The notes under the pieces: model-generated
Told to the model about the DNA's origin: nothing
The model's database searches: none
The model's input: the letters and a program-made list of their open reading frames with translations, nothing else
Assembly (NCBI RefSeq): GCF_002575655.3
Contig: NC_053039.3
Span: 48,051,290 to 48,115,289, forward strand
From: Aegilops tauschii subsp. strangulata
Lineage: Eukaryota > Streptophyta > Magnoliopsida > Poales > Poaceae
Length of the DNA stretch: 64,000 nt
Direction: 5' to 3'
Translations under genes and position numbers: made by a program
Part shown: piece after piece, positions 4,990 to 52,283 of the stretch
How the letters are laid out: each line of letters opens with the position of its first letter
Position numbering within the stretch: position 1 is the stretch's first letter

Positions 4990-6135
4990 AAAAAAATATC
5001 ACACGTGGTTTAAGATCTTAGCAATCCAATCACCGACTTGCATATGTCTAGTTCATTCACTCCCGTGTCCAACCCGCTCAAGTGCCCATTGCATCTGGCT
5101 ACAACGATTCCACGAGCCCTCTCGCGGGGGCGACGAGTGTCGTCTGACCCCAGACGAACCGATGTATGTCCCTCCGATATCTTCTTAGCGTGTCCCTCAT
5201 CCTCGTCTCTCCCCCCCATTGCTCTTCCCACACTCTCGATTCCTTCTCCCTATCCAGCGGGGAACTACCACCATGAGCAGCACTCCCAGTCCCCCTCTCA
5301 ACGGTCCAGATCGGATCGGATCGAGGCCACCACCTTCTTCCTCTCTTCCTTCACCATGAGCAGTAGCAAAAGCAAGGAGGCCGCCGCCTTCCAGGTCACC
5401 AGTCGCCGTCGCCCATCCCGGGCCGTCCCTCTCCTTATTCCCTTGCTTCCTCTTCCCAATTGCGAGATTAATCTCTGTTTTACTAATTTTATGAAACGAA
5501 ACTGCAATTAGTAATAGGATCTTCAACGGGCATGTGTTCCTCCTTTGATTAATATATTATGCAATGCTGATCGGGAATTAAAGTGCTAAATTTTTTCTAT
5601 GTCCGATCAGGATTCCTTCAACAATTAGAGATTTCATTTTTTCCTCCTTTGGCTTTGATCAATTCCATCCCTTTCATTCCTTTTTTGGCTTTCCTTCCTT
5701 CATTATTCTGTCAGATTTGAACGGTCCCATGAGAGCCTGCCTTACTTAATTAGAGATTCGGCTTTCCTTCCATTGTTCTTCTCTCTCAGATTTGAATGGT
5801 CCCCCATGAGAGCCGCTTAGTTCTCACACCCTTCGCTCATTAATTCATGTGACGGCTGCTTGACAACAAGAAAAACTTAAAGGCGTATATAAATTGGGAG
5901 GATTTAATGTAAGGGGGCGAGGTGGGACTATATTATGCATAATAGTAATTTTTTGTCTCTCCTTATGTGGGTCGGCTTCATTGAGCCCAGCGCAGGCTGC
6001 CTCCGCCTTGCCTTACGTGGATATAAGTGGGCCGGCTTGGAAATATAACGTCAGCCCAAAAGCTCATCGCTCGAGGGAGCAGTTTAACCTGCGAAGCATG
6101 GACTGGAGCAGTTTAACAAGAAAAAAGGTCAGAGA
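4990..6135. other. Repeat-like DNA, no gene recognised
   Basis: Contains a pyrimidine-rich stretch and an ATG-led frame at 5038-5511 (plus strand) with no recognisable domain. Short motifs such as CTTTCCTTCCAT recur between 5640 and 5800. I see no supported gene. Confidence 0.3.
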
Positions 6136-38478: not shown

Positions 38479-39089
38479 GATTTTAAGGGAGTGAGGCCGG
38501 GCCTTATTAAATCAAGCCACGTATGCGATAGCACGGATGGGCGCACGCACGGGAAGCAGGCAAGTCTCATCCCTTGAAATGGAGAGTATTGCTTTGTCCT
38601 GACATAAGTACCAAACTCTTGACAAAATAATCACCATCTTAGGACAGCAGCTAGTTTGCTTACGTTGCAAGCGTTCCTAGATCGTCAACTACCGGTCGAT
38701 AATTGGTGGTCGTTCAACTGCACACTGTGCTTCTACACATGTCGAGGCACCTGCTAAACGAAATTAGCTAGAGCTCCATCGACCCACAATCCCACATGGT
38801 CTACATTTAAAAAAGAAACGGTCTTGTAGACTTCAAGGGTTGAGTAGATAATAGTCAAGGCCCGTGGGTTAGATATTTGAGGTCTTGTGTACTATGCCCA
38901 ATATTTTGTACCTCCAGGATGTCTACAACGACTGCACTAGAATATATTTTTCTATCATTTTGTATTATTGTCATCTACATCTTGTTAGCCACACCTTGTT
39001 GTGAGACAACATACCACTAGTAGAAAACTGGGCTTTGGTCACAGGGCAATATTCACATTAGTGAGCATTGGTCCGGTTCGTGCGGCCAG

Positions 39090-39245
39090 GGGCCTGCCGG
39101 GCCTCGTGGGGGCATTGGTCCCGGTTCGTCTGGACCCTTTGGTCCCGGTTGGTGGGACAAATCGGGACCAATGGGCCACGCTCCTGGCCCACCACCCTTT
39201 AGTCCCGGTTCATACCATAAACCGGGACTAAAGGGCTGGTCCTAG
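39090..39245. repeat. CACTA 5' subterminal palindrome block
   Basis: Repeated GGTCCCGGTT / AACCGGGAC(C/T)AAA words in both orientations, the likely binding sites of the element's own DNA-binding protein, as known for En/Spm. Related blocks lie at 39950, 44930, 46070 and 52020. Confidence 0.8.
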
Positions 39246-39261
39246 TTGCGGCCGGTGTTTA

Positions 39262-39304
39262 GTCCCACCTCGCCAACCGAAGGGCGCTCACACCAGTTTA
39301 TAAG
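39262..39304 (+). promoter_or_regulatory. U6-type Pol III promoter P1 (USE + TATA)
   Basis: GTCCCACCTCG (39262-39272), exactly 24 bp, then TTTATAAG (39297-39304). The upstream element matches the plant snRNA consensus RTCCCACATCG at 10 of 11 positions. A 24-bp gap is the Pol III (U6) spacing; Pol II snRNA genes have about 10 bp more. Confidence 0.7.
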
Positions 39305-39325
39305 CCCGTCCCTCTCTGCCTTGTT

Positions 39326-39466
39326 GAGCTCCTCTCAAAGTGAAAATAGATGCCCTTATACAGGGAATTTGACCTAAATTCACAGTAAATTTCTTTGAAT
39401 TTCATAGAAATTTATTATGAATTTAGGTTGAATTTTCTCTATAGGCGCATCTATGTTCATTTTTTT
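39326..39466 (+). ncRNA. Predicted Pol III hairpin RNA R1, about 140 nt
   Basis: Predicted start GAGCTCCTCTC lies 22 nt after the P1 TATA box. The RNA then folds as a long imperfect hairpin: arm 39341-39394, loop of about 11 nt, arm 39406-39459. Seven T (39460-39466) follow the hairpin directly, an ideal Pol III stop. It has no coding capacity. The fold resembles a microRNA precursor. Expression is not shown. Confidence 0.55.
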
Positions 39467-39708
39467 ATAGTAAATAAAAATAGATAAACCTTAATAAAAG
39501 AAACTATAGTAACTAAAATAAATAAACCTTAATAAATTAAATAAAAATAGCAGCAGTAAAATAAATAAAAATAGCAGCAGTAAAATAAATAAAAATAAAA
39601 TAATTAAAGTAAAATACATAAGTAATTAGAAATAAAATAAATAAGTTCTTTGTTGTAAGTAGAAACAAAACAAAACAAATAAAGCAAAAGAGAAAACAAA
39701 AAACAGAG
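39467..39708. repeat. AT-rich spacer with AAATAAATA-type repeats
   Basis: Low-complexity A-rich DNA separating the convergent units R1 and R3. Its right part has a counterpart in 45292-45840. Confidence 0.6.
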
Positions 39709-39857
39709 AAAAAAATTATGCCACCTACTGGGTCACCCCGGCATGAATACGACTTGAAACCCATCCGTGGGCCAGGATTCAGGCCCGCAGAAGGCCCAGT
39801 AGGCCCCACAGGCAAAGAGAACGGTTAGGCCCGAAAGCCTGCAGTTGAGAGGAGCTC
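39709..39857 (-). ncRNA. Predicted Pol III RNA R3, about 149 nt
   Basis: Transcribed leftward from P3. The conserved start GAGCTCCTCTC is 22 nt after TATA, followed by GCAGGCTTTCGGGCCTAAC. The 3' half can pair CCTACTGGG with CCCAGTAGG. It ends at seven T on the minus strand (39709-39715). Clear homologue of R4 (44685-44839). Confidence 0.5.
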
Positions 39858-39878
39858 GAGAGGGTGGGCGCAGCAGCG

Positions 39879-39921
39879 CTTATAAACCACTCTCCAGCCC
39901 TCTCAACTAGCGAGGTGGGAC
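39879..39921 (-). promoter_or_regulatory. U6-type Pol III promoter P3
   Basis: On the minus strand GTCCCACCTCG (39911-39921), 24 bp, TTTATAAG (39879-39886). Same geometry as P1. Confidence 0.7.
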
Positions 39922-39949
39922 TAAACTTTTGACGCGGGGCAGCAGAAGG

Positions 39950-40070
39950 CCTTTGGTCCCGGTTGGTGCCACCCACCGGGACTAAAGGGGGCATTGGTCC
40001 CGGTTCGTGGCACCAACCGGGACCAAAGGCCTTTAGTCCCAGTTGGTGCTACGAACCGGGACCAAAGAGT
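39950..40070. repeat. CACTA palindrome block upstream of the TNP2 gene
   Basis: Several GGTCCCGGTTGGTGCCACC / ACCGGGACTAAAG words in both orientations, ending just before the TATA box at 40075. Confidence 0.8.
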
Positions 40071-40074
40071 TCCC

Positions 40075-40082
40075 TATATATA
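40075..40082 (+). promoter_or_regulatory. Pol II TATA box of the first CACTA gene unit
   Basis: TATATATA directly after the palindrome block. A leader follows with a plausible donor at about 40351 and an acceptor at about 40453. Confidence 0.55.
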
Positions 40083-40457
40083 CCCCATCGCCACAGCAGA
40101 GCACTCCACAGTGCTCTGTTTTTTCTGGCCGGCGAGGGGAGGGCATTTGGGTGCTCTAGCTCACCTCCTATGCACATGAGGTGTTCGACGAAATGTCTGA
40201 GCCACACGAGTTAATCTTTCTCCTCTCGAAACTCGACCTCCGAGCTCCATTTTTCCCGAGATTTGTCTAGGTTTAGCGGTCCGTCACATCCCGTCCCCGT
40301 CTTCACCGCCGTCGATCGCCCGCGCCGATCTCGTCGCCAGCACCACCGTGGTGAGCCTCTGGTTCTTATCTTCTTTCTGAAAGGAAAAAATTCTCACTTT
40401 AGATAGTTACTTGTCTAATTTTGTTACTTTTATTATTCCTTCTTATTACATAGTGCG

Positions 40458-40904
40458 ATGCTTTTGGTATCCGCCCCCGTCGGCCCTCGTCCTGTCTATG
40501 ATTCGGATGTGGTATATATTATTTTTTATAACTATTTGGTTCATTTATTGTTTATGACAAATATACCGACCAACGTGACATAGATTTTATTTATCTAGGA
40601 GGTGGTTGAACCGGAAATTCTAACCGACCCTATTGTCGAGAGGTTAAATTCAGTTGAAGAAGAAAACAATTACTTGAAGGAAAAAATAAAAAAAATTGAG
40701 GAGGAGAAGATGATATTGGAGTTGCATGTTGCGGATGTTGTCGATGATCACAAGATCAAGATGGATGCAATGTGCTTGAAGATTAGAAAGATTAGAAAAT
40801 ATGCCATTCATACCGAGGCTTGGTATCATTATGCCGTTGGATCAATTGTTACCTTGGTTGCGATTATGATCGCATTTGTTTTCGCATTGAAATGTTTTAC
40901 ATAG
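40458..40904 (+). CDS. Small CACTA protein: coiled coil plus C-terminal membrane segment
   Basis: Two exons: 40458-40511 (ATG GCTT context, ending at GT) and 40599-40904 (after TATCTAG), joined in phase to give about 119 residues. The N-terminus is short and Pro-rich, the middle (about residues 27-65) is Glu/Lys-rich with heptad-like Leu/Ile spacing (EEENNYLKEKIKKIEEEK), and the end has a 20-residue hydrophobic segment followed by KCFT, as in tail-anchored membrane proteins. It sits between the promoter and the transposase start, so it may be the first frame of a shared transcript or removed by alternative splicing. Unlike the neighbouring genes it is intact. Function unknown; a role as an upstream ORF is an alternative. 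Confidence 0.6.
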
Positions 40905-41088
40905 TTTCAATGTATGGTTTAATTAATTAGATGCTCTGGAGAGCTATATATATGTTGTTAGATGAGAACTATGTATGTACTTTGGTTTTAATGTGATGAT
41001 GAACTTCTATTAATTTGGTCACTTAATTATCTATTCATGATGCTCTGTAATGGTTTTGGACACACTTAATTATATATAATGCACGCAG

Positions 41089-44000
41089 ATGAACCGACAA
41101 TGGATGTACGGTGACAGACACACCTCCGAGTACATTAAGGGCATGCATGATTTTCTCGAAGTGGCTGAGGCAAACAAGCAGAATGGTTTTATGTGTTGTC
41201 CATGCCCTATATGTGGGAATACGAAGTCTTACTCTGACCGGAAAATCCTTCACACCCACCTGCTTTACAAGGGTTTCATGCCACACTATAATGTTTGGAC
41301 GAGGCACGGAGAAATAGGGGTTATGATGGAAGACGGCGAAGAAGAAGAGGACGATGACAACTATGTGCCCCTAAATACGGTGATGCTGCAACGGGGGAAG
41401 CTGCTGAAGATCAAGAGGAACCAGACGATGTGCCCAATGATGCTGCAAGAGGGGAAGCTGCTGAAGATCAAGTGGAACCAGTGCCCGATGATGATGATCT
41501 CCGCCGGGTCATTGTCGATGCAAGGACGCAATGCGAAAGTCAAAAGGAGAAGCTGAAGTTCGATCGCATGTTAGAGGATCACAAAAAAGGGTTGTACCCC
41601 AATTGCGAAGATGGCAACACAAAGCTCGGTACCGTACTGGAATTGCTGCAGTGGAAGGCAGAGAATGTTGTGCCTGACAAAGGATTTGAGAAGCTATTGA
41701 AAATATTGAAGAAGAAGCTTCCAAAGGATAACGAATTGCCCGACAGTACATACGCAGCAAAGAAGGTCGTATGCCCTCTAGGATTGGAGGTGCAGAAGAT
41801 ACATGCATGCCCTAATGACTGCATCCTCTACCGCGGTGCATACAAGGATCTGAACGCATGCTCGGTATGCGGTGCATTGCGGTATAAGATCAGACGAGAT
41901 GACCCTGGTGATGTTGACGGCGAGCCCCCAGGAAGAGGGTTCCTGCGAAGGTGATGTGGTATGCTCCTATAATACCACGGTTGAAACGTCTGTTCAGAAA
42001 CGAAGAGCATGCCAAGTTGATGCGATGGCACAGTGAGGACCGTAAGAAAGACGGGAAGTTGAGAGCACCCGCTGACGGGTCGCAGTGGAGAAAAATCGAG
42101 AGAAAGTACTGGGCTGAGTTTGCAGCTGACCCAAGGAACATATGGTTTGGTTTAAGCGCGGATGGCATTAATCCTTTCGGGGAGCAGAGCAGCAATCACA
42201 GCACCTGGCCCGTGACTCTATGTATGTATAACCTTCCTCCTTGGATGTGCATGAAGCGGAAGTTCATTACGATGCCAGTTCTCATCCAAGGCCCTAAGCA
42301 ACCCGGCAACGACATTGATGTGTACCTAAGGCCATTAGTTGAAGAACTTTTACAGCTGTGGAATGGAAACGGTGTACGTACGTGGGATGAGCAAAAACAG
42401 GAGGAATTTAACCTGCACGCGTTGCTGTTTGTAACCATCAACGATTGGCCCGCTCTCAGTAACCTTTCAGGACAGACAAACAAGGGATACCACGCATGCA
42501 CGCACTGTTTAGATGACACTGAAAGTATATACCTGGACAAATGCAGGAAGAATGTGTACCTGGGCCATCGTCGATTTCTTCCGACCAACCATCAATGTCG
42601 AAAGAAAGGCAAGCATTTCAAAGGCGAGGCAGATCACCGGAAGAAGCCCGCCATGCGTACCGGTGATCACGTACTTGCTATGGTCAATGATTTACATGTA
42701 ATCTTTGGAAAGGGTCCCGGCGGACTAGCTGTTCCGAATGACGCTGAGGGACACGCACCCATGTGGAAGAAGAAATTTATATTTTGGGACCTACCCTACT
42801 GGAAAGAGCTAGAGGTCCGCTCTTCAATCGACGTGATGCACGTGACGAAGAACCTTTGCGTGAACCTGCTAGGCTTCTTGGGCGTGTATGGGAAGAGAAA
42901 AGATACACCTGAGGCACGGGAGGACCTGCAACGTTTGCACGAAAAAGACGGCATGCCTCCAAAGTAGTATGAAGGTTCTGCCAGCTACGCTCTTACGAAA
43001 GAAGAGAAAGAAATCTTCTTTGAATGCCTGCTCAGTATGAAGGTCCCGACTGGCTTCTCGTCGAATATAAAGGGAATAATAAATATGCCAGAGAAAAAGT
43101 TCCAGAACCTAAAGTCTCATGACTGCCACGTGATTATGACGCAACTGCTTCCGGTTGCATTGAGGGGGCTTCTACCGGAAAACGTCCGATTAGCCATTGT
43201 GAAGCTATGTGCATTCCTCAATGCAGTCTCTCAGAAGGTGATCGGTCCAGAAATCATACCAAGGCTAAGGAGTGATGTGGCGCAATATCTTTTCAGTTTC
43301 GAGCTGGTGTTCCCACCATCCTTCTTCAATATCATGACGCACGTCCTAGTTCATCTAGTCGACGAGATTGTCATTCTGGGGCCCGTATTTCTACACAATA
43401 TGTTCCCCTTTGAGAGGTTCATGGGAGTCCTAAAGAAATATGTCTGTAACCGCGCTAGGCCATAAGGAAGCATCTCCATGGGCCATCAAACAGAGGATGT
43501 CATTGGGTTTTGTGTTGACTTCATTCCTGGCCTTAAGAAGATAGGTCTCCCTAAATCGCGGTATGAGGGCAGACTGACTGGAAAAGGCACGCTTGGAGGG
43601 GACTCAATAATATGCAGGGACGGATATTCTTGGTCTCAAGCACACTACACAGTTCTACATAACTCTACCTTGGTGACCCCGTATGTCGATGAACACAAGA
43701 ACAGTCTGCGCTCCAAACACCCGGAGCAGTGTGACGACTGGATTACAGGTGAACACATCAGGACTTTCAGCAGTTGGTTGGAAACACCACTGTTTGTGAT
43801 GAGTTATACTCGTTGTCCAGGGGACCATCTTCGACTGTATTGACTTACAAAGGATACGAGATAAATGGGAATACATTTTACACGATCGCCCAAGATCAAA
43901 AGAGCACCAACCAAAACAGCGGTGTCCGCTTTGATGCAGCAACCGAGAGGGGAAAGGACACATATTATGGTTACATAATGGACATATGGGAACTTGACTA

Positions 44001-44430
44001 CGGACATGATTTTAAGGTCCCTTTGTTTAAGTGCAAATGGGTCAATCTGTCAGGAGGCGGGGTACAGGTAGACCCACAGTACGGAATGGCAACAGTGGAT
44101 CTGAACAATCTTGGGTACACTGACGAACCGTTCGTCCTAACCAATGATGTGGCACAGGCTATCTATGTGAAGGACATGTCTACCAGACCGAGAAAAAGAA
44201 AAGATAAGGAAGCGAATACATCATACGATGAGCCAAAGCGCCACATAGTTCTTTCAGGAAAAAGGGACATTGTGGGAGTGGAGGGCAAGACAGACATGTC
44301 TGAAGATTATGAAAAGTTCCATGAAATTCCTCCCTTCAAAGTCAAGGCTGACCCAAGCATCCTGATAAACGATGAAGATTATCCATGGTTACGGCGCAAT
44401 AAGCAAATGACACAAGCGAAGAAAAAGTGA
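41089..44430 (+). pseudogene. TNP2-type CACTA transposase, broken
   Basis: The start ATG follows a GCACGCAG acceptor. N-terminal Transpos_assoc-like domain (MYGDRH...; CCPCPICGN zinc-like motif), acidic linker, Transposase_21 domain, DUF4218 and DUF4216-like C-terminus ending QAKKK. The three catalytic acidic residues of the CACTA DDE fold are present: D in SADGINPF (42161-42163), D in IDVMHVTKN (42830-42832) and E in FPFERFMGVLKKY (43412-43414). Damage: one-base frameshifts near 41372 and 41928 (both in short C runs), a small deletion near 43785, and stops at 42965-42967 and 43463-43465. The intact enzyme would excise and insert the element in the nucleus. Few lesions mean recent decay. Confidence 0.92.
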
Positions 44431-44684
44431 AGACTTTCTCCCGCAACTATTATGATGATACGATGCCAACTTTATAACAGACGAGTATGATACCATTGTC
44501 CGTTTTGTACACGAAGTGCATCTAGTTTTTGTCGTAACCCTCTCAACTTTCTTGCACATGCTATGTGGATGAAATGATGATACCATGCCATCTTTCAACC
44601 TTTTCAGAGTTCATTTGAAATGCTTTTCAATTTTAGGGTCTTATAGCTCAAAATAATTAGTAAATGCATGAAAAATAACAGGCC

Positions 44685-44839
44685 AAAAATTAAAAATTAT
44701 GCCACCTACTGGGCCACCACGGCCTGAATACGATTAGAAACCCATCCATGGGCCAGGATTCAGGCCCCCAGAAGGCCCAGTAGGCCCACATGCATGTACA
44801 GAGAGGTTAGGCCCGTAAGCCTGCTTTAGAGAGGAGCTC
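44685..44839 (-). ncRNA. Predicted Pol III RNA R4, about 150 nt
   Basis: Leftward from P4. Starts GAGCTCCTCTC 22 nt after TATA, then GCAGGCTTACGGGCCTAAC. Two nested perfect stems are possible: CCTACTGGGCC with GGCCCAGTAGG (44774-44784 and 44705-44715) and GGCCTGAAT with ATTCAGGCC (44758-44766 and 44721-44729). Ends at T runs of five (44692-44696 and 44685-44689). Homologous to R3 over most of its length. Confidence 0.5.
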
Positions 44840-44860
44840 GACAGCTCAGGCGCACCGCAC

Positions 44861-44903
44861 CTTATAAACAGGTGCGGCTCTCTCTCAGCTAGCGAGGTGG
44901 GAC
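44861..44903 (-). promoter_or_regulatory. U6-type Pol III promoter P4
   Basis: Minus strand GTCCCACCTCG (44893-44903), 24 bp, TTTATAAG (44861-44868). Divergent from P2 across a palindrome block. Confidence 0.7.
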
Positions 44904-44929
44904 TAAACTCAGCACCACGCCGCTGTGCA

Positions 44930-45075
44930 AGGCCATTGGTCCCGGTTGGTGGCACGAACCGGGACCAATTCCACCCTTTGGTCCCGGTTGGTGCCACGAA
45001 CCGGTACTAATGAGGTTGTGGCCCCACGAGCACCTTTAGTACCGGTTCGTGGCACGAACCGGTACTAGAGTTTCT
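44930..45075. repeat. Internal palindrome block between P4 and P2
   Basis: GGTCCCGGTTGGTG and inverted partners; some copies read GGTACCGGTT or AACCGGTACTA instead, a variant not seen in the terminal blocks. Confidence 0.8.
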
Positions 45076-45092
45076 TACTAAGCAGTTTTTTA

Positions 45093-45135
45093 GTCCCACC
45101 TCGCTAGCTGAGAGGCACTAGGAGCGGTTTATAAG
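45093..45135 (+). promoter_or_regulatory. U6-type Pol III promoter P2
   Basis: GTCCCACCTCG (45093-45103), 24 bp, TTTATAAG (45128-45135). The sequence around the box (GGTTTATAAG) is the same as in P3 and P5. Confidence 0.72.
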
Positions 45136-45157
45136 CCCTGAGTGCATAGACGATGAA

Positions 45158-45291
45158 GAAGAGGCGCAATGCTCACGTTGCTTAGCTTCAAGCCTTGAGG
45201 AATAAGGTAGACTGCATGGAGCTATGTGCAGTGCAGTCTACACTATTCCGAAAGGCTTGAAGCAAATCAACGAGCATTGCGCCTTTTTTTT
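45158..45291 (+). ncRNA. Predicted Pol III hairpin RNA R2, about 130 nt, microRNA-precursor-like
   Basis: Predicted start is 22-23 nt after the P2 TATA box. Almost the whole RNA is one hairpin: arm 45162-45216, loop about 15 nt, arm 45232-45284, with matching blocks such as AGGCGCAATGCTC and GAGCATTGCGCCT, GCTTCAAGCC and GGCTTGAAGC, TAGACTGCA and TGCAGTCTA. Eight T (45284-45291) follow at once. No open frame. Dicer substrates look like this; expression is not shown. Confidence 0.6.
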
Positions 45292-45840
45292 ATTTTTAAT
45301 AACTTATTACAACTCCGGACTTCTTGTGTTCCGACAAAATAAAATAAACTTTAATAAAATTTATGAAACTAAAATTAACAAAGTATTTTCTGTTCAAAAC
45401 ATTATAAGAAACCTCTAGTATTATTGAAACTAAAATCATATAAATTTGATGCAACTAAAATTATCAAAGTATTTTCTGTTCAAAATCATTAAAAGCAAAA
45501 AGAACTTTCATAGAGAACTTTTTTTGATAGAAACTTTAATAGCAAAAAGAATTATCATAAAGTAAAATAAATAAGTAATTAGAAATAAAATAAAATAAAA
45601 TAAATAAGTTTTTTGTTGTAACTAGAAACAAAACAAAATAAATAAAGCAAAAAAGAAAACAAAAAAACGGAATACAGCAAAAAGAATTTGATAGAAACTT
45701 TAATAGCAAAAAGAATTATCATAAAGTAAAATAAATAAGTAATTAGAAACAGAATAAAATAAATAAATAAGTGTTTTGTTGTAAGTAGAAACAAAATAAA
45801 ATAAATAAAGCAAAAAAGAAAACAAAAAACTAAATACAGC
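45292..45840. repeat. AT-rich spacer with an internal duplication of about 175 bp
   Basis: AGTAAAATAAATAAGTAATTAG and the sequence after it occur twice (from about 45555 and about 45725) and once more in 39590-39708. No gene. Confidence 0.65.
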
Positions 45841-45973
45841 AAAAAAAATGTTGGGGCGCTGTCCGCTGGGCCCTCCAACCCTCGGGTTTGCAAATACAGG
45901 CCCAGAAGGGCTAGAGGGCTCAACGGGCAGCGCGCCAAAGTTAGGCCCAGAAGCCTGCTATAGAGAGGAGTTC
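45841..45973 (-). ncRNA. Predicted Pol III RNA R5, about 130 nt
   Basis: Leftward from P5. Starts GAACTCCTCTC (one change from the shared start box) 22 nt after TATA, then GCAGGCTTCTGGGCCTAAC. A strong stem of about 23 bp joins 45914-45936 to 45853-45875. Ends at eight T on the minus strand (45841-45848). Shares its 5' third with R3 and R4 but has a different hairpin. Confidence 0.52.
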
Positions 45974-45994
45974 GAGACAGCAGCCGCAGCGGGG

Positions 45995-46037
45995 CTTATA
46001 AACCACTCCGAGCCCTTCTCAACTAGCGAGGTGGGAC
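45995..46037 (-). promoter_or_regulatory. U6-type Pol III promoter P5
   Basis: Minus strand GTCCCACCTCG (46027-46037), 24 bp, TTTATAAG (45995-46002). Confidence 0.7.
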
Positions 46038-46069
46038 TAAACTTTTCGCTGCGACGCGGGCAGCAATCG

Positions 46070-46312
46070 GCCTTTGGTCCCGGTTGGTGCCACCAACCGG
46101 GACTAAAGGGGTGCATTGGTACCGGTTCGTGGCACCAACCGGGACCAATGCCCCCCTTTAGTCCCGGTTGGTGCCACCAACCGGGACCAAAGGCCGTCGC
46201 TTCCCGCCCTTTGCGCTGCTGAAAAGAGGGCTTTGGTCCCGGTTGGTGGCACCAACCGGGACTAATGCCTACCTTTAGTCCCGGTTGGTGCCACGAACCG
46301 GGACTAAAGGCT
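46070..46312. repeat. CACTA palindrome block upstream of the TNP1/Ulp1 gene
   Basis: At least six GGTCCCGGTTGGTGCCACC-type words in alternating orientation, ending just before a TATA box. Confidence 0.8.
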
Positions 46313-46316
46313 TTGC

Positions 46317-46324
46317 TATATAAG
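46317..46324 (+). promoter_or_regulatory. Pol II TATA box of the second CACTA gene unit
   Basis: TATATAAG directly after the palindrome block, in the same relative position as 40075-40082. A C-rich leader (46360-46640) follows; its open frames are probably untranslated. Confidence 0.55.
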
Positions 46325-46959
46325 TTCACACTTAGGAAATTTTCAGAGTTACCTAGCAGTTGCCGCCCCGACGACGCCGACGCCGCCAGGCTGCCCCGAC
46401 GCCACCCGCCGCCCCCGCCGTCGCCCGCGCTCGTCATCGCCGTTGCTCGCGCCCTCGCCGTCAGCCGCGCCCCTGCCCCGACGCGCGCCGCCCCGGCCCG
46501 TCCCCGTCGTCACCGTGGCCCTGCCCCGCCCTTCGCCGCCGACGCCTCTGCCCCTGCCCCGACCACGCCGCCGTCGCCTCTGCCCCTGCCCCGACGCGCC
46601 GCTGTCGCCTTGGTCAGGGCCGGCACTGCCCCCTAATTCCTCCATGTTTTTTCTGCACATTTATATGTATATGTATGAGTATATGTATGTGTGTATATCT
46701 GTTTATATGTCCTTTTTTTAGATTTTTTTTTTTGCATTTTCTCTGTGTATATGTATGTATATATGTTCTCTGTGTCTATATATGTTCATGTATATATGCA
46801 AAAGATAGATTTTTAGAAAAGTTAGAATTTTTTCTGTTCATAGATTTTTTTGGTGATATTAATTATTGTAGAATATGCAAATGTTTGTATATTCATATGA
46901 ACAATGCATTAGGCAAAACCTTTACTTTTTTTCGAAATTTTCTATTTGAACATTTTTTT

Positions 46960-47235
46960 ATGAATGAGAGGAAAAAGGAAAATAAGAAGAGGAAGAAAGG
47001 AGAAGAAGAGGAGAGGAAGAAGAGGAGAAATAAATAAGAAGAGGAAAAAAAGAAAAAGAAGAGGAGAAGAAGAAAGGAATAAAAGAGAAGAAGAAAAAAT
47101 AGAATTTTTTTCTATTTTTTCTTCTTCTCTCCTCTATTCCTTTCTTCTTATCCTCTTTTTTTTCTTCTTTTTTTTCTTCGATCTTCTCCTCTATTTCTTT
47201 TCTTCTTCTCCTCTTTTTGTTTCTTCTTCGTTTTC
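46960..47235. repeat. Purine tract facing a pyrimidine tract (large imperfect inverted repeat)
   Basis: GAAGAGGA-type repeats (46964-47098) are followed by their mirror on the other strand (47105-47235). The inner arms match almost perfectly (AAGGAATAAAAGAGAAGAAG against CTTCTTCTCTCCTCTATTCC). It lies in a presumed intron of the second gene. Confidence 0.7.
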
Positions 47236-47249
47236 TTATGTTTTATCGG

Positions 47250-47560
47250 GTCTGTCGTCTTCGATATACCCCTCTCCCGATAACTTCGACACGAGGGGGG
47301 GTCGATATACCCCCTCCCCGATAATATTATTTTCCCATGTACGTTCATTGTCGTTGTTGATATAACCCCCTCCCGATAACTTCAACACGTGGGGGGGGGT
47401 CGATATACCCCCTCCCCGATAACATTATTTTCCCATGTATGTATGTCGTCGTTGTCGATATATATAACTCCCTCCCAGATAACTTCGACATGATGGACGG
47501 TCGATATTTATACCCCCTCTCGACCGTGATAACTTATACCACGGGAGCACCCCCCCGGCC
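47250..47560. repeat. Degenerate tandem repeat containing GTCGATATACCCCCTCCC
   Basis: GATATACCCCCTCCCCGATAA plus a spacer with ATTATTTTCCCATGTA recurs two to three times at about 120-bp spacing. Non-coding, in the presumed intron of the second CACTA gene. Confidence 0.65.
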
Positions 47561-47762
47561 CTCTCGCTCGACCAAAACTCTCGATCACACCCAAACCATA
47601 GAGAAAAACGATGTCGGTCTCCTACCCCCTCCCGCCGCGCCCCTACCCTTGAAGCGTTGCTGAGGCCACCCCAAACCCGGAATAAGCTAGGTCTACGTTT
47701 GCACTAACCACCTGCTGTCATGTTTGTGTAATAATTGTCGTGTTGTAATATTTGCAGAAACA

Positions 47763-50700
47763 ATGGAGCACGGACGAGACGAGCAAGCAGAAGAGGTGTT
47801 GAGGGACATAATCTTAGCCGGAGGTGATATCTTGTCGTATCTTAACGACAATGATGGTCTGGAAGAACAGCGTGAAGAAGCAGGCTACGGTGATCGAAGA
47901 GTGGAGGAGGAAAGACATGATTATGATGGCTCCGGTGACCCAATGCTGGTGCAAGAAGGAGCCTGTGGTGACGGCTCCGGTGACCGAATAGAGTCCGGCC
48001 AGGTAAATATATTAGTTAAGCCTGTGTTGACTAGCTAATTGATGCATTCATTGTTTTGGTATGTACACATATTAATTAATACTCGTCTTTCTTCTTTTTT
48101 CTAGCCCTCCGGATCGAGCACAACTGCGGTAAAGAGACGAGGCCCGAAGAGAAAGTTGCGCTCGGATGAAAGGTTTGAGATCACAGCAATCGCGCGCGAC
48201 GGCCAACTGATTGAACCCATCCGGATAAAGGATGCATTTGCTGCTCAGTGCGGGGTTCTAGTTAGGGACAAGATCCCGATCAGCATCCACCAATGGTATA
48301 AGCCTAAAAAGGAAGACCCTGAGGTGTCTTATGTCAATGATATGCAGAAAGATGATCTTTGGACTGAGCTGAAGGCAAATTTCACCCTACCGCCAGAGGA
48401 GGATCCGGAGAAGCCAGTTAAAGAGCAATTAATCAAGTCTCATGCTCTTAAGAAGATGGCAGACATATTCAGGAGGTGGAAGAATGAGCTGAAAACGTTT
48501 GTCGACAAAGAAGAGACACCAGAATTCATCGGCCGGTATGAGAAGATCAGAGATCACTGGCCCGCATTTGTGGCCCACAAGACATCGGAAAAGAGTAAGA
48601 AGATGCCAGCGACAAACAAGAAGAATGCTGCGAAGAAGAAGCTTCACCATCGCACGGGGTCAGGTGGCTACCTCAAAGCCCGGCCTAAGTGGGCCAAGGC
48701 TGAGAATGATCTGCTTGAAAAAGGGATCGAACCATAGATAATGAACTGGACAGACCGTTGCCGGGCTTGGTTCTTCGGGGCTGGCGGAACCTTGGACCCT
48801 GTATCAGGGAGGTGCGTTTGGACGAACGAGCTTTTGAGAATACCAGTCAAGAAGATTCAGCAATATATCGATGCAGCGCAGGAAGGGACGTTCGTTCCAG
48901 ACAGAGAGAACGACGAGCTCACAATGGCCCTCAGGAATCCTGTGCACCCTGGACGGACACGAGGCACGCCAGGCTCCGTTCCGTGGAAGGCTGGTTTTCC
49001 GGACGCAGGCGGTTACAAAATCCAGGAGAGGAGGAAAAAAATGGAGCAGACCCAAATTCAGAAGCTGCACGAAAGGGTTCAAGCACTAGAGGAACGAGAC
49101 AGCAATCGACATGCCGAAACTACCCCCGAAGCTACCCCGCCATCTCAGCGGAGAAGCAGCGTGGCTTCCACCGAGCTGCTTCAGCTGGAGCATGTCTTGA
49201 CGGCTCCTGCTAGCTACTCCGTGGATGCTATCACGGAGTCTCAACATTGCCACCTTATGGCGCAATGGCACAACTTCAAAGTCAAGGCGGCTGTTGGCTC
49301 TGTTTTACCTCCTGAACCCGGCGCAACCTACCATTGTCGGCCGATTCCAGAAGGATATGCTAGGGTGATGGTGGATGAAATAACGGAGGGATTTGAGGAC
49401 CTCCAGCTTGACCACCCTACCGGTGAAGGGGTGACTTGGCTGTGTTTAGCTCTGAAGACTCCGTGCCTATGGCGGAAGGAGCTCATCAACCTTCCGAACT
49501 GGACGGCTCCGGCGAGTAAGGGCAGTCCACCACCTCCTCCGCCTCCTCCTCCGGCGAGTGATCAGGGCACTCAGCCTCCTTCTCCGGCGCGTGGCGGCAC
49601 TCCGCCTCCTCCTCCGGCGAGTGATCAGGGCACTCAGCCTCCTTCTCCGGCGCGTGGTGGCACTCCGCCTCCTTCTCCGCCTGCGCCGGCGCGCCAGAGC
49701 AGCCAGCCTCCTCCTTCTCCGCCTCGTCAGTAAGGGCGGAAGAGACCCGCCGCCGCTGCGGCTGCTCCGGCGCGTCGTAGTCCTTCTCCTCCACCTCGTA
49801 AGCAAGGAAAGAAGACAGTCGCAGCCGCTCCGTCTGCTCTGCCGGCGTCTAGCAGTACAGCTGCCAGAGGCGGGAGGCAATACAGATTCGGTCCTTCTCT
49901 GAAGACTCCAGAGAAGTTACCATACGAGAGGACCGAGGAGGAAACCAGGAAGATCGTGCGAGCCGAAGTGACAAACTTCTTTGAAGGGGTGAAAGCAAAG
50001 AAACATCCACCTCCGGAAGAGAAGGTAGATCCGGTGAAAGCAAAGCGCACTCTGGCTGCCCTGACAAAACCACCAAAGTCTCCGCCGAGAGGCAACTATG
50101 AGCGCATTCTTGCAAAGACATATGCCGAAGCGGAGCGGTCGGGAAGTACTGTCAGTGATCAAAGGTTAAAAGAACGACGAGCTGGGAAAAAATTGCCCAG
50201 CTCGGCGAACAAGCGAACCAATCGTGCCCCCCACTCAAGGTGTCAAAAGACATCGTCGCTAATGATCCGAGGATGGTGCCCGGTTATAGCAATCTTGGAG
50301 ATTACCTGCCCGACGATGTACATTATGAAATCATGGAGGTGGACGAACACAAATACCATTACGGGAAGCCTCTCGTCAAAGATGAACGATCTCTAACAAC
50401 GATGATGCGAAGATTACATGATTGGTACATGAAAACCTGCAGAGAGTCTGATGGGACGAGTACTTTGACGCTGAGAGTTAAACCGGAGCATGACCTCGTT
50501 GGAATTGAACTGCTGAATGTTCCATTTCAGGATTTCTTCCAGTTTTACAATCAAAAGGCCCTCGATAAAACAACGATCACTTTCTACTGTCTGTAAGTAG
50601 TACTACTTCTGTCATTAAGTCTCTCTATATAGGTCAGCTCTTTCATTGCATGTATTTATAATTATCCTCACTATATTATGCAGATTGAAGATCGCCGAAT

Positions 50701-51662
50701 TGAAGAAAAGACAAATCGGTGATATTGGGTTCATTAACACTAATCTCATAGATGCATATACGGTTGAAAAACATCCCAAAGAAGCCGAGGCCAACTTGCT
50801 ACAATCGTTGATATTAAATCAAAACAAAGATATAATACTCTTTCCTTACAACTTCAAGTGAGTGTTACTGTCTTGTGCATATTCGGTTTCCCTTATTAGT
50901 CCAGGTTATGGTAATGTAATTGATGACTTATGCATGCATGCGCAGCTTCCACTATATTCTCCTAGAGATTAAGCTTGAGCAGGGAGTAGTAACCATCTTT
51001 GACTCGAGACGAAAAGATCCCCAGGACTATGCGAACATGACTCAAATGCTCGAGAAGTAAGTTAAATCGATCATTATCCACCATATCAGCAACTTTGTTC
51101 ATTTCCTGATATCAAGTAATTGTTTTCTTTGTCTGGCAGGGTTTGGAGAAAATTCACCACAAAAGCTCCGGGACTGCCGAAAAAGCTGCAATTTAAACAC
51201 CCGAAAGTAAGTACTATAGTAGCATGCCGCGCATCTCCTAGTGATTCAAGCGCTAGTTTCATCAATACCATTTAGCATGCTTGCTTATCAATTTGATTGA
51301 CCTCTATTTCTTGTAAAGTGGTTGTGGCAGGAACCCGGGAATAATTACTGTGGATACTACGTTTGCGAGTCCATCCGCTACACGACCTGTGAGCAGGGCT
51401 ACTCTGAAGAACAATATGAAGTGCGTAAGCAATAATATTCACAATTTTATTTTATTACCATCATTTGTGTTGAGTTTCATTTATTCATATATATATGTAT
51501 TGACCCCCTTCTTCAAATTAGATGTTTCGGAAGCGGGATGAACTCCTAGCACCAGATCGTATGCGAGGAATTCAAGATGAATTGGCGGCATTCTTCCTTG
51601 ACCACGTGATCGCTGAAAACGGAGAATACTATGTGGACCCTGTGTTCTTACAATTTAATTAG
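47763..51662 (+). pseudogene. TNP1-type (Transposase_24) CACTA gene fused to an Ulp1-like C48 protease domain, broken
   Basis: Exons with good splice sites: 47763-48002, 48105-50592, 50684-50857, 50946-51056, 51140-51206, one from 51331, and a last one ending at TAG 51660-51662. The N-terminal part is acidic, then a Transposase_24-like DNA-binding region (48156-48900), a Pro/Ser-rich repeat linker (49510-49800), and a C-terminal Ulp1/C48 fold with the triad in order: His in NFHYILLEI (from 50946), Asp in TIFDSRRKD, Cys in NYCGYYVCESIR (from 51343). Lesions: in-frame TAG at 48735-48737, TAA at 49731-49733, and a one-base loss in an A run near 50188. The intact protein would probably bind the GGTCCCGGTT repeats; the protease-like domain may cleave SUMO-type conjugates, which is inference. 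Confidence 0.85.
49510..49735 (+). repeat. Pro/Ser-rich coding repeat in the second CACTA gene
   Basis: Units such as CCTCCTTCTCCGGCG and GCGAGTGATCAGGGCACTCAG recur, giving PPSPARGGTPPPP-type peptide repeats, a flexible linker between the DNA-binding and protease-like parts. Confidence 0.7.
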
Positions 51663-52019
51663 GAGATTGTATTGTAAGAGATAATTATTGTATATATGTA
51701 GCCGGTAGTGTCGGATAGATATACGAGAACTTGTTGTTCGACCAATCTCTCGGAGAAGGAGAGGTGGTCGATATCACTTATCTCTGTATGCATATGTTCA
51801 TGACGATCTTCTGTTTCCTACATTTGATTACTAGCTAGCGTGTCTAGTCCTCTCCATACGTATATAGTACGTAGCGTCGACCAAGCACGGAGATAAGAGA
51901 GGACACTTCTCTCTATTAATTAGCTAGCTAACACAATATATGAAACACCTAAATTAACCCCCAACCCCCCCCCCCCCCTTCAAAAAAACAAAAACCCCAG
52001 CCCCTGAAATGCTGACGCG

Positions 52020-52245
52020 TGGATGCCTATTGGTCCCGGTTGGTGACACCAACCGGGACAAAAGGCCCTGCCTATTGGTCCCGGTTGGTGGCACCAACCG
52101 GGACCAAAGGGCCCCCTGCCTGGGCTGGCAGCAGCGGCCACGTGGAGGACCTTCTGTCCCGGTTCGTGTAAGAACCGGGACTGAAGGGTTAGGGCTTTAG
52201 TAACGACCCTTTAGTCCCGGTTCGAAAACCGAGACAAAAGGTCCT
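52020..52245. repeat. CACTA 3' subterminal palindrome block
   Basis: GGTCCCGGTTGGTG and partners, with diverged forms (GTCCCGGTTCG) near the end. No U6-type promoter is seen here. Confidence 0.8.
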
Positions 52246-52283
52246 TACAAACCGTGGTAAAAGCCCTTTTCCTACTAGTGTAC

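Follow-up and report, generated by a model that had tools for sequence, protein, structure and literature searches.

Engineered U6-shRNA vectors, which serve gene silencing, have their parts in the order promoter, hairpin and T run. Type-3 promoters, which serve for shRNA expression, follow in plants the rule of a USE (RTCCCACATCG) combined with a TATA box, the USE being closer by one helical turn in snRNA genes of Pol III than in those of Pol II, and the consensus of a further element, the MSP, is RGCCCR (PMC9845283). The precursors of plant miRNAs are described as being transcribed by Pol II (PMC8664484). The locus analysed here has its nearest precedents in miR820 of rice and in foamy viruses with their Pol III miRNAs. 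The former is a small-RNA stem-loop gene found within a CACTA transposon, for which no Pol III promoter is named in the parts of the source cited here, and its element is present in five copies in Nipponbare (PMC3459959). Bovine foamy virus, a cattle retrovirus, provides an example of a parasitic or mobile element with Pol III-directed hairpin-RNA genes (PMC7693620). CACTA-related sequences are also found among the wheat TE-“miRNAs”, such as tae-miR1117 (PMC3398953).

The window, which is the whole 64,000-nt stretch of Aegilops tauschii DNA that was analysed, contains a CACTA transposon with five promoter units, U1 to U5 (Table 1). These share with plant U6/U3 type-3 Pol III genes the 24-bp USE–TATA distance, the TATA box, the start distance (19/20 U6 genes) and the T-run end, and differ from them by their location in a DNA transposon, by their predicted hairpin RNA bodies and by an exact MSP at U1 only. 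The order of parts is the one used in the engineered vectors, but the units are natural, come as five per element and carry several hairpin types. In contrast to the five copies of the miR820 element, about 11,000 excess promoter-like sites are counted here, and unlike the foamy virus the carrier is a DNA transposon of a plant, with upstream promoters of the U6 type. The tae-miR1117 sequence is identical to window positions 45037-45060, but this matched sequence is a subterminal repeat and belongs to none of the five hairpins.

The termini of the transposon, CACTAGTAG.. and ..CTACTAGTG, were located as CACTAGTAGAAAAC at 39015(+) and CACTAGTAGGAAAA at 52280(-), with the 3-bp target duplication TAC on each side. 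Its tnp2-type transposase, the frame of which is interrupted in this copy, could be recognized through domain matches to Transpos_assoc (3.3e-21), Transposase_21 (3.5e-87), DUF4218 (6.6e-20) and DUF4216 (5.2e-15). The Transposase_24 match of the second ORF region lies under the curated cut-off. Subterminal repeats are present as a 35-nt unit in 16 copies, and all five promoter sites fall within this single transposon. The CACTA identity proposed in an earlier sequence-only reading is thus supported by the termini, the TAC duplications and the transposase domains.

Table 1. Features of the CACTA transposon and of its five units (window positions).
Feature	Position	Strand	Remarks
Whole CACTA (En/Spm) transposon	39015..52280		13,266 bp; TAC target-site duplications both sides
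MSP-like GGCCCA, upstream of U1	39186..39191	+	consensus RGCCCR
U1 promoter	39262..39304	+	USE 39262-39272, 24-bp spacer, TATA box 39297-39304
U1 predicted RNA	39327..39466	+	140 nt, long near-perfect hairpin, T7 end; -60.4 kcal/mol, z -11.83
U2 predicted RNA	39709..39856	-	148 nt, GC-rich, T7 end; -54.5 kcal/mol, z -1.09
U2 promoter	39879..39921	-	USE 39911-39921, TATA 39879-39886
tnp2-type transposase region	41080..44430	+	several open frames, stops between, in this copy
U3 predicted RNA	44692..44838	-	147 nt, T5 end; -56.3 kcal/mol, z -1.35
U3 promoter	44861..44903	-	USE 44893-44903, TATA 44861-44868
U4 promoter	45093..45135	+	USE 45093-45103, TATA 45128-45135
U4 predicted RNA	45158..45291	+	134 nt, hairpin spans +1 to T8 run; -83.1 kcal/mol, z -13.53
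U5 predicted RNA	45841..45972	-	132 nt, 34-nt leader then long hairpin, T8 end; -66.9 kcal/mol, z -6.27
U5 promoter	45995..46037	-	USE 46027-46037, TATA 45995-46002
Second ORF region	48105..50596	+	weak likeness to Ptta/En/Spm transposase (Transposase_24), E 0.00036

The five sites with a 24-bp spacing that had been claimed are all present. Exact GTCCCACCTCG-N24-TTTATAAG matches number five in the window, compared with a mean of 0.00 in 100 dinucleotide shuffles. Tolerating up to three mismatches adds one site, 5886-5928(-), outside the transposon. The 24-bp distance between USE and TATA is the spacing of Pol III, not of Pol II. The predicted start also agrees with type-3 genes, both in its distance of about 22 nt past the TATA box and in its purine base: the box GAGCTCCTCTC is found in U1 (its G at 39326), U2 and U3, and GAACTCCTCTC in U5, the G being each time the 22nd nucleotide past TTTATAAG. 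In U4, purines occupy both the 22nd and the 23rd position past the TATA box, namely A and G (A-GAAGAGG), so that a start box in four units and a purine in the fifth, as had been read, is borne out.

The same layout is observed in the U6 genes of this genome, 20 of which were fetched out of at least 48 scored. USE-N24-TATA is found in 19 of the 20 (the exception is N19), the distance from TATA to start is 21 nt in 10 of them and 22 nt in the other 10, and one bears the exact GTCCCACCTCG of the transposon. The wheat U6 layout that the sequence-only reading had given fits these genes, which come from Ae. tauschii. The spacers of U1 (p 0.0014) and U3 (p 0.0022) resemble U6 spacers beyond shuffles, the values for U2, U4 and U5 being 0.14, 0.06 and 0.06; these p values are uncorrected for five tests and refer to 18 U6 genes (19 of the 20 were parsed, L057 being missed, and L063, the N19 case, was left out). 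Among the matches listed elsewhere in the genome (47 sites), 31 distinct spacers occur, 30 of which have a mean identity of 8.4 to 13.8 of 24 to 17 U6 spacers (5.7 for the outlier), with p under 0.05 for 23 of those 30.

Genome-wide, CCTCG-N24-TTTATA occurs 12,034 times, a count of promoter-like motifs alone, against 858 for N23 and 751 for N22. The exact U6 spacing is thus about 14-fold more frequent than N23, with an excess of about 11,000 sites. This spacing series was relied on because the reversed-pattern control was erratic, with 2,194 (N24), 11,488 (N23) and 2,121 (N22) matches. Together with the layout of the U6 genes, the N24 excess supports the earlier proposal that a U6-type promoter architecture has been multiplied.

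Loss of the spacing in other family copies had been named as a finding that would speak against this proposal. With 18-31 bp allowed, the spacing is 24 bp in 132/132 motif-found units from 36 non-redundant copies; USE and TATA are both exact in 108 of these units, and 129 have the start where it would be expected. Entropy is 0.13 over USE and TATA and 0.91 elsewhere (permutation p 1e-5), a contrast that is favoured by the way units were found, through USE/TATA motifs with at most two mismatches each. At the U5 slot, aligned without motif-based picking (30 loci), pi amounts to 0.022 for TTTA+USE, 0.059 for TATA, 0.237 for the spacer and 0.170 for the leader. A motif-free alignment of the U3 slot reveals no USE/TATA contrast (USE 0.072, TATA 0.064, spacer 0.061, leader 0.069).

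The hairpin bodies of U3 and U5 are no less diverse than their flanks. Differing hairpins occupy the U5 slot, mostly preceded by an exact USE and TATA. The two U1 arms are near-identical between copies (pi 0.007 and 0.030). For the U4 unit, 39 further copies of at least 98% identity were found among 40 scored; purifying selection was dropped as a reading of this low diversity, since the copies had been picked with U4 as bait. Covariation within the family was likewise dropped as support, pairing being kept in 23 transitions and broken in 20 (p 0.76, for 130/132 units, two of no type, L031 and L034, being left out). Among 21 elements, U1 is present in 13, U2 in 16, U3 in 19, U4 in 21 and U5 in 20, U4 by construction and some of the missing units lying beyond the fetched stretch. 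Damaged promoters are seen at U1 of L032, U3 of L042 and U5 of L041, and U3 is absent from L036.

GGCCCA has a fixed position in 13/13 U1 units, 76 bp ahead of the USE, and a near-MSP, GGCCCCAC, is found upstream in 34/36 U4 units. The exact MSP is absent upstream of the other four units of this copy and upstream of 82/83 U2/3/5-type units; in the stretch scanned, it is also lacking in 1/20 U6 genes. Since an exact MSP strengthens monocot snRNA promoters, the units that lack it may be weak.

A short structured RNA had been proposed for every unit. The sequence supports this for U1, U4 and U5, which have the hairpin expected of a plant miRNA precursor. The support is weak for this copy's U2 and U3, which fold no better than shuffles and are related to each other (93% identity over 95 nt). 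Across the family, with 60 shuffles for each distinct transcript, z is below -3 in 12/12 U1-type, 10/10 U4-type and 28/28 U5-type transcripts, as well as in 22/48 of U2/U3-type and 2/4 others. Closure by a T run was confirmed in all five units, the first run of at least five T starting at nt 134, 142, 143, 127 and 125 of the predicted RNAs (U1 to U5), with the refinement that U1 has an additional internal T4 at +107. Apart from the units themselves, the window matches the arms over 12-16-nt stretches only, at chance level (E 0.39-0.40), and the matches of the arms in the fetched loci are confined to unit copies. Self-targeting of the transposon was dropped on both accounts, although weak, mismatched target sites may exist. 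No Rfam family was found at gathering score in the whole window, and the translated U4 arm has no match in the PDB.

The units are probably natural U6-short-hairpin-RNA cassettes within a Triticeae CACTA transposon. Their promoter layout is identical to that of U6 genes of the same genome, with exact spacing in all motif-found copies; between units, USE and TATA are kept above spacer and leader, and the U1, U4 and U5 hairpins end at T runs. A host U6 gene would have been the source of the promoter, copies of which the transposon would have set before several unrelated inverted repeats, giving cassettes of U6-type promoter, +1, hairpin and T run. As judged from their sequence, the units are quite likely competent for transcription by Pol III rather than Pol II, which would yield 130-150-nt hairpins with a 3' oligo-U. 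Dicer-like enzymes would cut these hairpins, though the chances that small RNAs are indeed produced look about even. Because the arms have no above-chance match elsewhere in the window, such small RNAs would rather act in trans, on host transcripts and not on the transposon. The likeliest benefit to the transposon would be a blunted host silencing, as for rice miR820 with DRM2, but that they have anti-silencing targets is doubtful.

A captured U6 promoter and nearby inverted repeats could also have spread with the transposon as a mere passenger relic, the cassettes being silent (methylated) and functionless. This is rather unlikely. The missing covariation support, hairpin bodies that drift like their flanks and the MSP missing from most units all fit with it, as does the observation that wheat CACTA-matching small RNAs are mostly 24-nt and concentrated in terminal repeats (PMC2996936). 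It accounts poorly for the persistence of USE, TATA and the 24-bp spacing next to a spacer and leader that diverge (both between units and at the U5 slot), and for the different hairpin types that follow the five promoters and replace one another at the U5 slot behind mostly exact USE/TATA.

Several unrelated hairpins behind U6-type promoters, and the large number of promoter-like sites, would also suit decoys that saturate Dicer-like or Argonaute proteins through their structure and not through target base-pairing, in the manner of adenovirus VA RNA. The near-identity of the U1 arms between copies would be needless for a structure-only role, although recent shared descent also explains it, and decoys look improbable. 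A role in cis is very improbable: TTTAGTCCCACC would be a variant form of the subterminal repeat of CACTA elements (TTTAGTCCCGGTT) that is retained because transposase binds to it, and its U6 likeness would be secondary. The units do adjoin the subterminal arrays and TTTAGTCCC is common to both, but a binding site accounts neither for the exact spacings of 24 and 22 nor for the TATA box, start box, hairpins and T runs, and TTTA ahead of the USE is also present at 19/20 U6 genes.

Extended from this copy to the family, the cassette interpretation would mean that Triticeae CACTA transposons hold natural U6-short-hairpin-RNA genes in the thousands. Their hairpins would be exchangeable, and their trans-acting small RNAs would be directed against host genes, most likely the silencing machinery. 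Such a transposon-run Pol III RNA-interference programme is put forward only tentatively, as the less probable outcome. A transposon bearing five U6-type hairpin cassettes would provide a Pol III route to plant small RNAs as well as a direct transposon counter-defence. In this single genome of 4.1 Gb, the roughly 11,000 extra promoter-like sites would outnumber the U6 genes (at least 48 scored), and such numbers might affect both the supply of Pol III factors and which U6 promoters are chosen when wheat genomes are edited.

A permissive Rfam search of the transposon gave 69 matches, all under gathering scores, many of which lie on subterminal repeats and on a purine-rich palindrome; three overlap hairpins, with low scores. 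In the literature, three arm 15-mers (two from U4 and one from U1, in T and U spellings) were matched in a single paper on yeast among the matches listed. Promoter 11-14-mers are matched in nine papers listed, among them a wheat GWAS paper that contains the USE string twice (PMC9746167).

The five promoter sites pointed out in the sequence-only reading, each pairing the upstream element of plant snRNA genes (USE) with a TATA box 24 bp away, are all exact in the window, with none in 100 shuffled versions. They all belong to units (U1 to U5: USE, spacer, TATA box, start, predicted RNA and T run) located within a single transposon. Its assignment to the CACTA group is borne out by its ends (see table), its subterminal repeats and its tnp2-type transposase domains, encoded in a reading frame broken by stops. 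The five units are identical at 11/11 USE and 8/8 TATA positions, at 6/24 spacer positions and at 0/22 positions of the leader between TATA box and start. Between U3 and U4 lies a subterminal repeat whose sequence matches tae-miR1117 exactly, a published 24-nt wheat miRNA given as CACTA-related in the part consulted of PMC3398953; this repeat is none of the five hairpins, and the small RNA probably represents a transposon siRNA.

Coordinates of the transposon and of accompanying features in the window
Feature	Position	Strand	Description
CACTA transposon	39015-52280		CACTA termini, TAC duplicated at either side
Subterminal repeat	45037-45060		matches tae-miR1117
Palindrome	47010-47200		inside the transposon; long, purine-rich then pyrimidine-rich; many sub-threshold Rfam miRNA matches
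Tandem repeat	49537-49731		63 bp, four copies (two 98% identical), in second ORF region
Sixth USE-like site	5886-5928	-	outside the transposon; GTCCCACCTCG-N24-TTTATATA, GGCCCAC upstream

The sections consulted of PMC9845283 and PMC11961915 describe the plant rule as a USE (RTCCCACATCG) and a TATA box at about -30, the spacing of which decides for Pol III, with a monocot element (MSP, RGCCCR) that is required or helpful. The best control for the transposon promoters is provided by the U6 genes of the same genome, of which 48 were scored with the Rfam U6 model and 20 fetched with their upstream DNA. The USE-TATA gap is exactly 24 bp in 19 of these 20 (19 bp in the remaining one), TTTA precedes the USE in 19/20, one gene bears precisely GTCCCACCTCG, and the first U6 base follows the end of the TATA box by 21 nt in 10 genes and 22 nt in 10. 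Both distances are the same as in the transposon units, in agreement with the U6-type reading initially proposed. In five tests, one per unit and with p values uncorrected for their number, spacer similarity to U6 exceeds that of shuffles at U1 (p 0.0014) and U3 (p 0.0022) and is borderline or absent at U4, U5 and U2 (p 0.06, 0.06 and 0.14). Elsewhere in the genome, 47 sites yielded 31 distinct spacers. When these are compared with 17 U6 spacers, 30 agree on average at 8.4 to 13.8 of 24 positions, with p under 0.05 for 23 of them; the outlier (5.7 of 24, p 0.49) resembles a site arisen by chance. These sequence comparisons support acquisition of a U6 promoter by the transposon, rather than a chance arrangement or an altered subterminal repeat. 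The sixth USE-like site is followed by 150 nt of ordinary fold (-38.0 kcal/mol), and the 355 nt inspected downstream contain no run of T4 or longer; the site may belong to a further gene of Pol III type, intact or decayed.

Pattern counts at spacings N22, N23 and N24 covered the whole genome (4.10 Gb, 692 contigs). CCTCG-N24-TTTATA occurs 12,034 times (6,015 + 6,019), versus 858 for N23 and 751 for N22, and there are therefore about 11,000 excess sites at exactly the U6 spacing. Of the first 47 N24 sites, 46 resemble the units in their spacer sequences. The backward-pattern control is erratic (2,194 for N24, 11,488 for N23 and 2,121 for N22); an abundant repeat must carry ATATTT-N23-GCTCC, which far exceeds its neighbouring spacings. 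Four identical promoter spacers on one strand of contig C1 of the same genome (2460263, 2504044, 2547841 and 2591758, +), about 43.8-43.9 kb apart, suggest tandem duplication of a 44-kb block.

When the U4 unit was used as a genome query, 40 of 1,388 candidate places were scored, each of the 40 (the window among them) at 98% identity or more. For 20 other U4 copies, the surrounding 9.8-9.9 kb were examined: the complete set is present in 10, in the order U1+, U2-, U3-, U4+, U5-, and two to four units in each of the other 10, partly because the stretch ends earlier or other DNA intervenes; none of the 20 shows a different order. Together with the window and 15 loci of 3.2 kb, they form 36 non-redundant copies. 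The anatomy of the units is constant: the spacer measures 24 bp in all 132 units detected by motif, with 18-31 bp permitted. USE and TATA are both exact in 108/132 units, a detection tolerating up to two mismatches in each motif and thus favouring conserved motifs; hairpins also lie behind damaged promoters (L032 U1, L042 U3 and L041 U5, among the fetched loci). The start is at its expected position in 129/132 units (exceptions: L041 U2, L049 U1, L013 U5). An exact MSP lies upstream of U1 in 13/13 units, and in 34/36 units U4 is preceded by a version with one extra base (GGCCCCAC); the MSP is missing from 82 of the 83 remaining units (U2, U3 and U5 types), which speaks against the Pol III reading. 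Over 66 promoter haplotypes, mean entropy is 0.13 for USE and TATA versus 0.91 for spacer and leader (permutation p 1e-5), or 0.13 versus 0.87 without U4. A motif-free alignment of the U5 slot at 30 loci gives pi values of 0.022 for TTTA and USE, 0.059 for TATA, 0.237 for the spacer and 0.170 for the leader. The U3 slot of that alignment shows no such contrast (0.072, 0.064, 0.061 and 0.069, respectively), and the conservation signal thus comes from the U5 slot and from comparing the units with one another.

Five structured RNAs had been proposed. Taken from +1 through the first T5 run, the predicted RNAs of U4 (134 nt, -83.1 kcal/mol, z -13.5 relative to shuffled sequence), U1 (140 nt, -60.4 kcal/mol, z -11.8) and U5 (132 nt, -66.9 kcal/mol, z -6.3) are long hairpins; the window copies of U2 (z -1.1) and U3 (z -1.35) cannot be told apart from shuffles. 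Across the family, distinct transcripts reach z values under -3 in 12/12 cases of U1 type, 10/10 of U4 type, 28/28 of U5 type, 22/48 of U2/U3 type and 2/4 unclassified. Four further sequences were folded, with z -3.3 for a U3 row, -3.6 for a majority form of U2, -8.4 for a U5 row and -1.2 for a U2/U3-type row taken from the U5 slot. Apart from the U2-U3 pair, the hairpin types are unrelated in sequence; U2, U3 and U5 have a 31-35-nt leader in common, and U1 and U2 a 12-nt start box. At the gathering score, Rfam finds no family in the whole window. The hairpins look modular, since a U2/U3-like hairpin replaces that of U5 in the U5 slot of L022, L038, L039, L040 and L050 (L018-L020 being the same elements as L038-L040), an apparent cassette exchange within the family. 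In L038 the USE ahead of this hairpin has two changes; in the other four copies both USE and TATA are exact.

Some tests went against this reading. Selection on the hairpins would predict an excess of transitions keeping the pairing over those breaking it; the numbers are 23 and 20 (p 0.76, 130/132 units), in a test weakened by the many differences between transposon copies that arise after insertion, without selection. Four double changes keep pairing and none breaks it. Diversity in the hairpins of U3 and U5 is roughly that of the neighbouring sequence; U4 varies very little, as expected when copies are chosen by a U4 bait.

Transposon-borne hairpin RNAs and Pol III-made hairpin RNAs are each already known. 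The new aspect would be the combination, in predicted units, of a Pol III-type promoter and a hairpin within a DNA transposon. We know of no case of this union, five-fold and with thousands of promoter-like sites. Among the papers listed in literature searches, none pointed to a U6-type promoter in a CACTA element as judged by titles, abstract openings and term counts, a survey with subscription papers mostly, and bioRxiv preprints wholly, outside its range. In the likeliest mechanism, Pol III would transcribe the units into short hairpins with a 3' oligo-U, which would then be diced into trans-acting products. Apart from the units themselves, the window matches the arms only at chance level (12-16 nt, E 0.39-0.40), and matches in the fetched loci are confined to unit copies; the arms thus do not look directed against genes of the transposon itself, which leaves a host target or no target. 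The worked precedent for small RNAs borne by CACTA elements comes from rice: miR820 targets OsDRM2, a DNA methyltransferase gene, according to the part consulted of PMC3459959, and is also named in that of PMC5943564.
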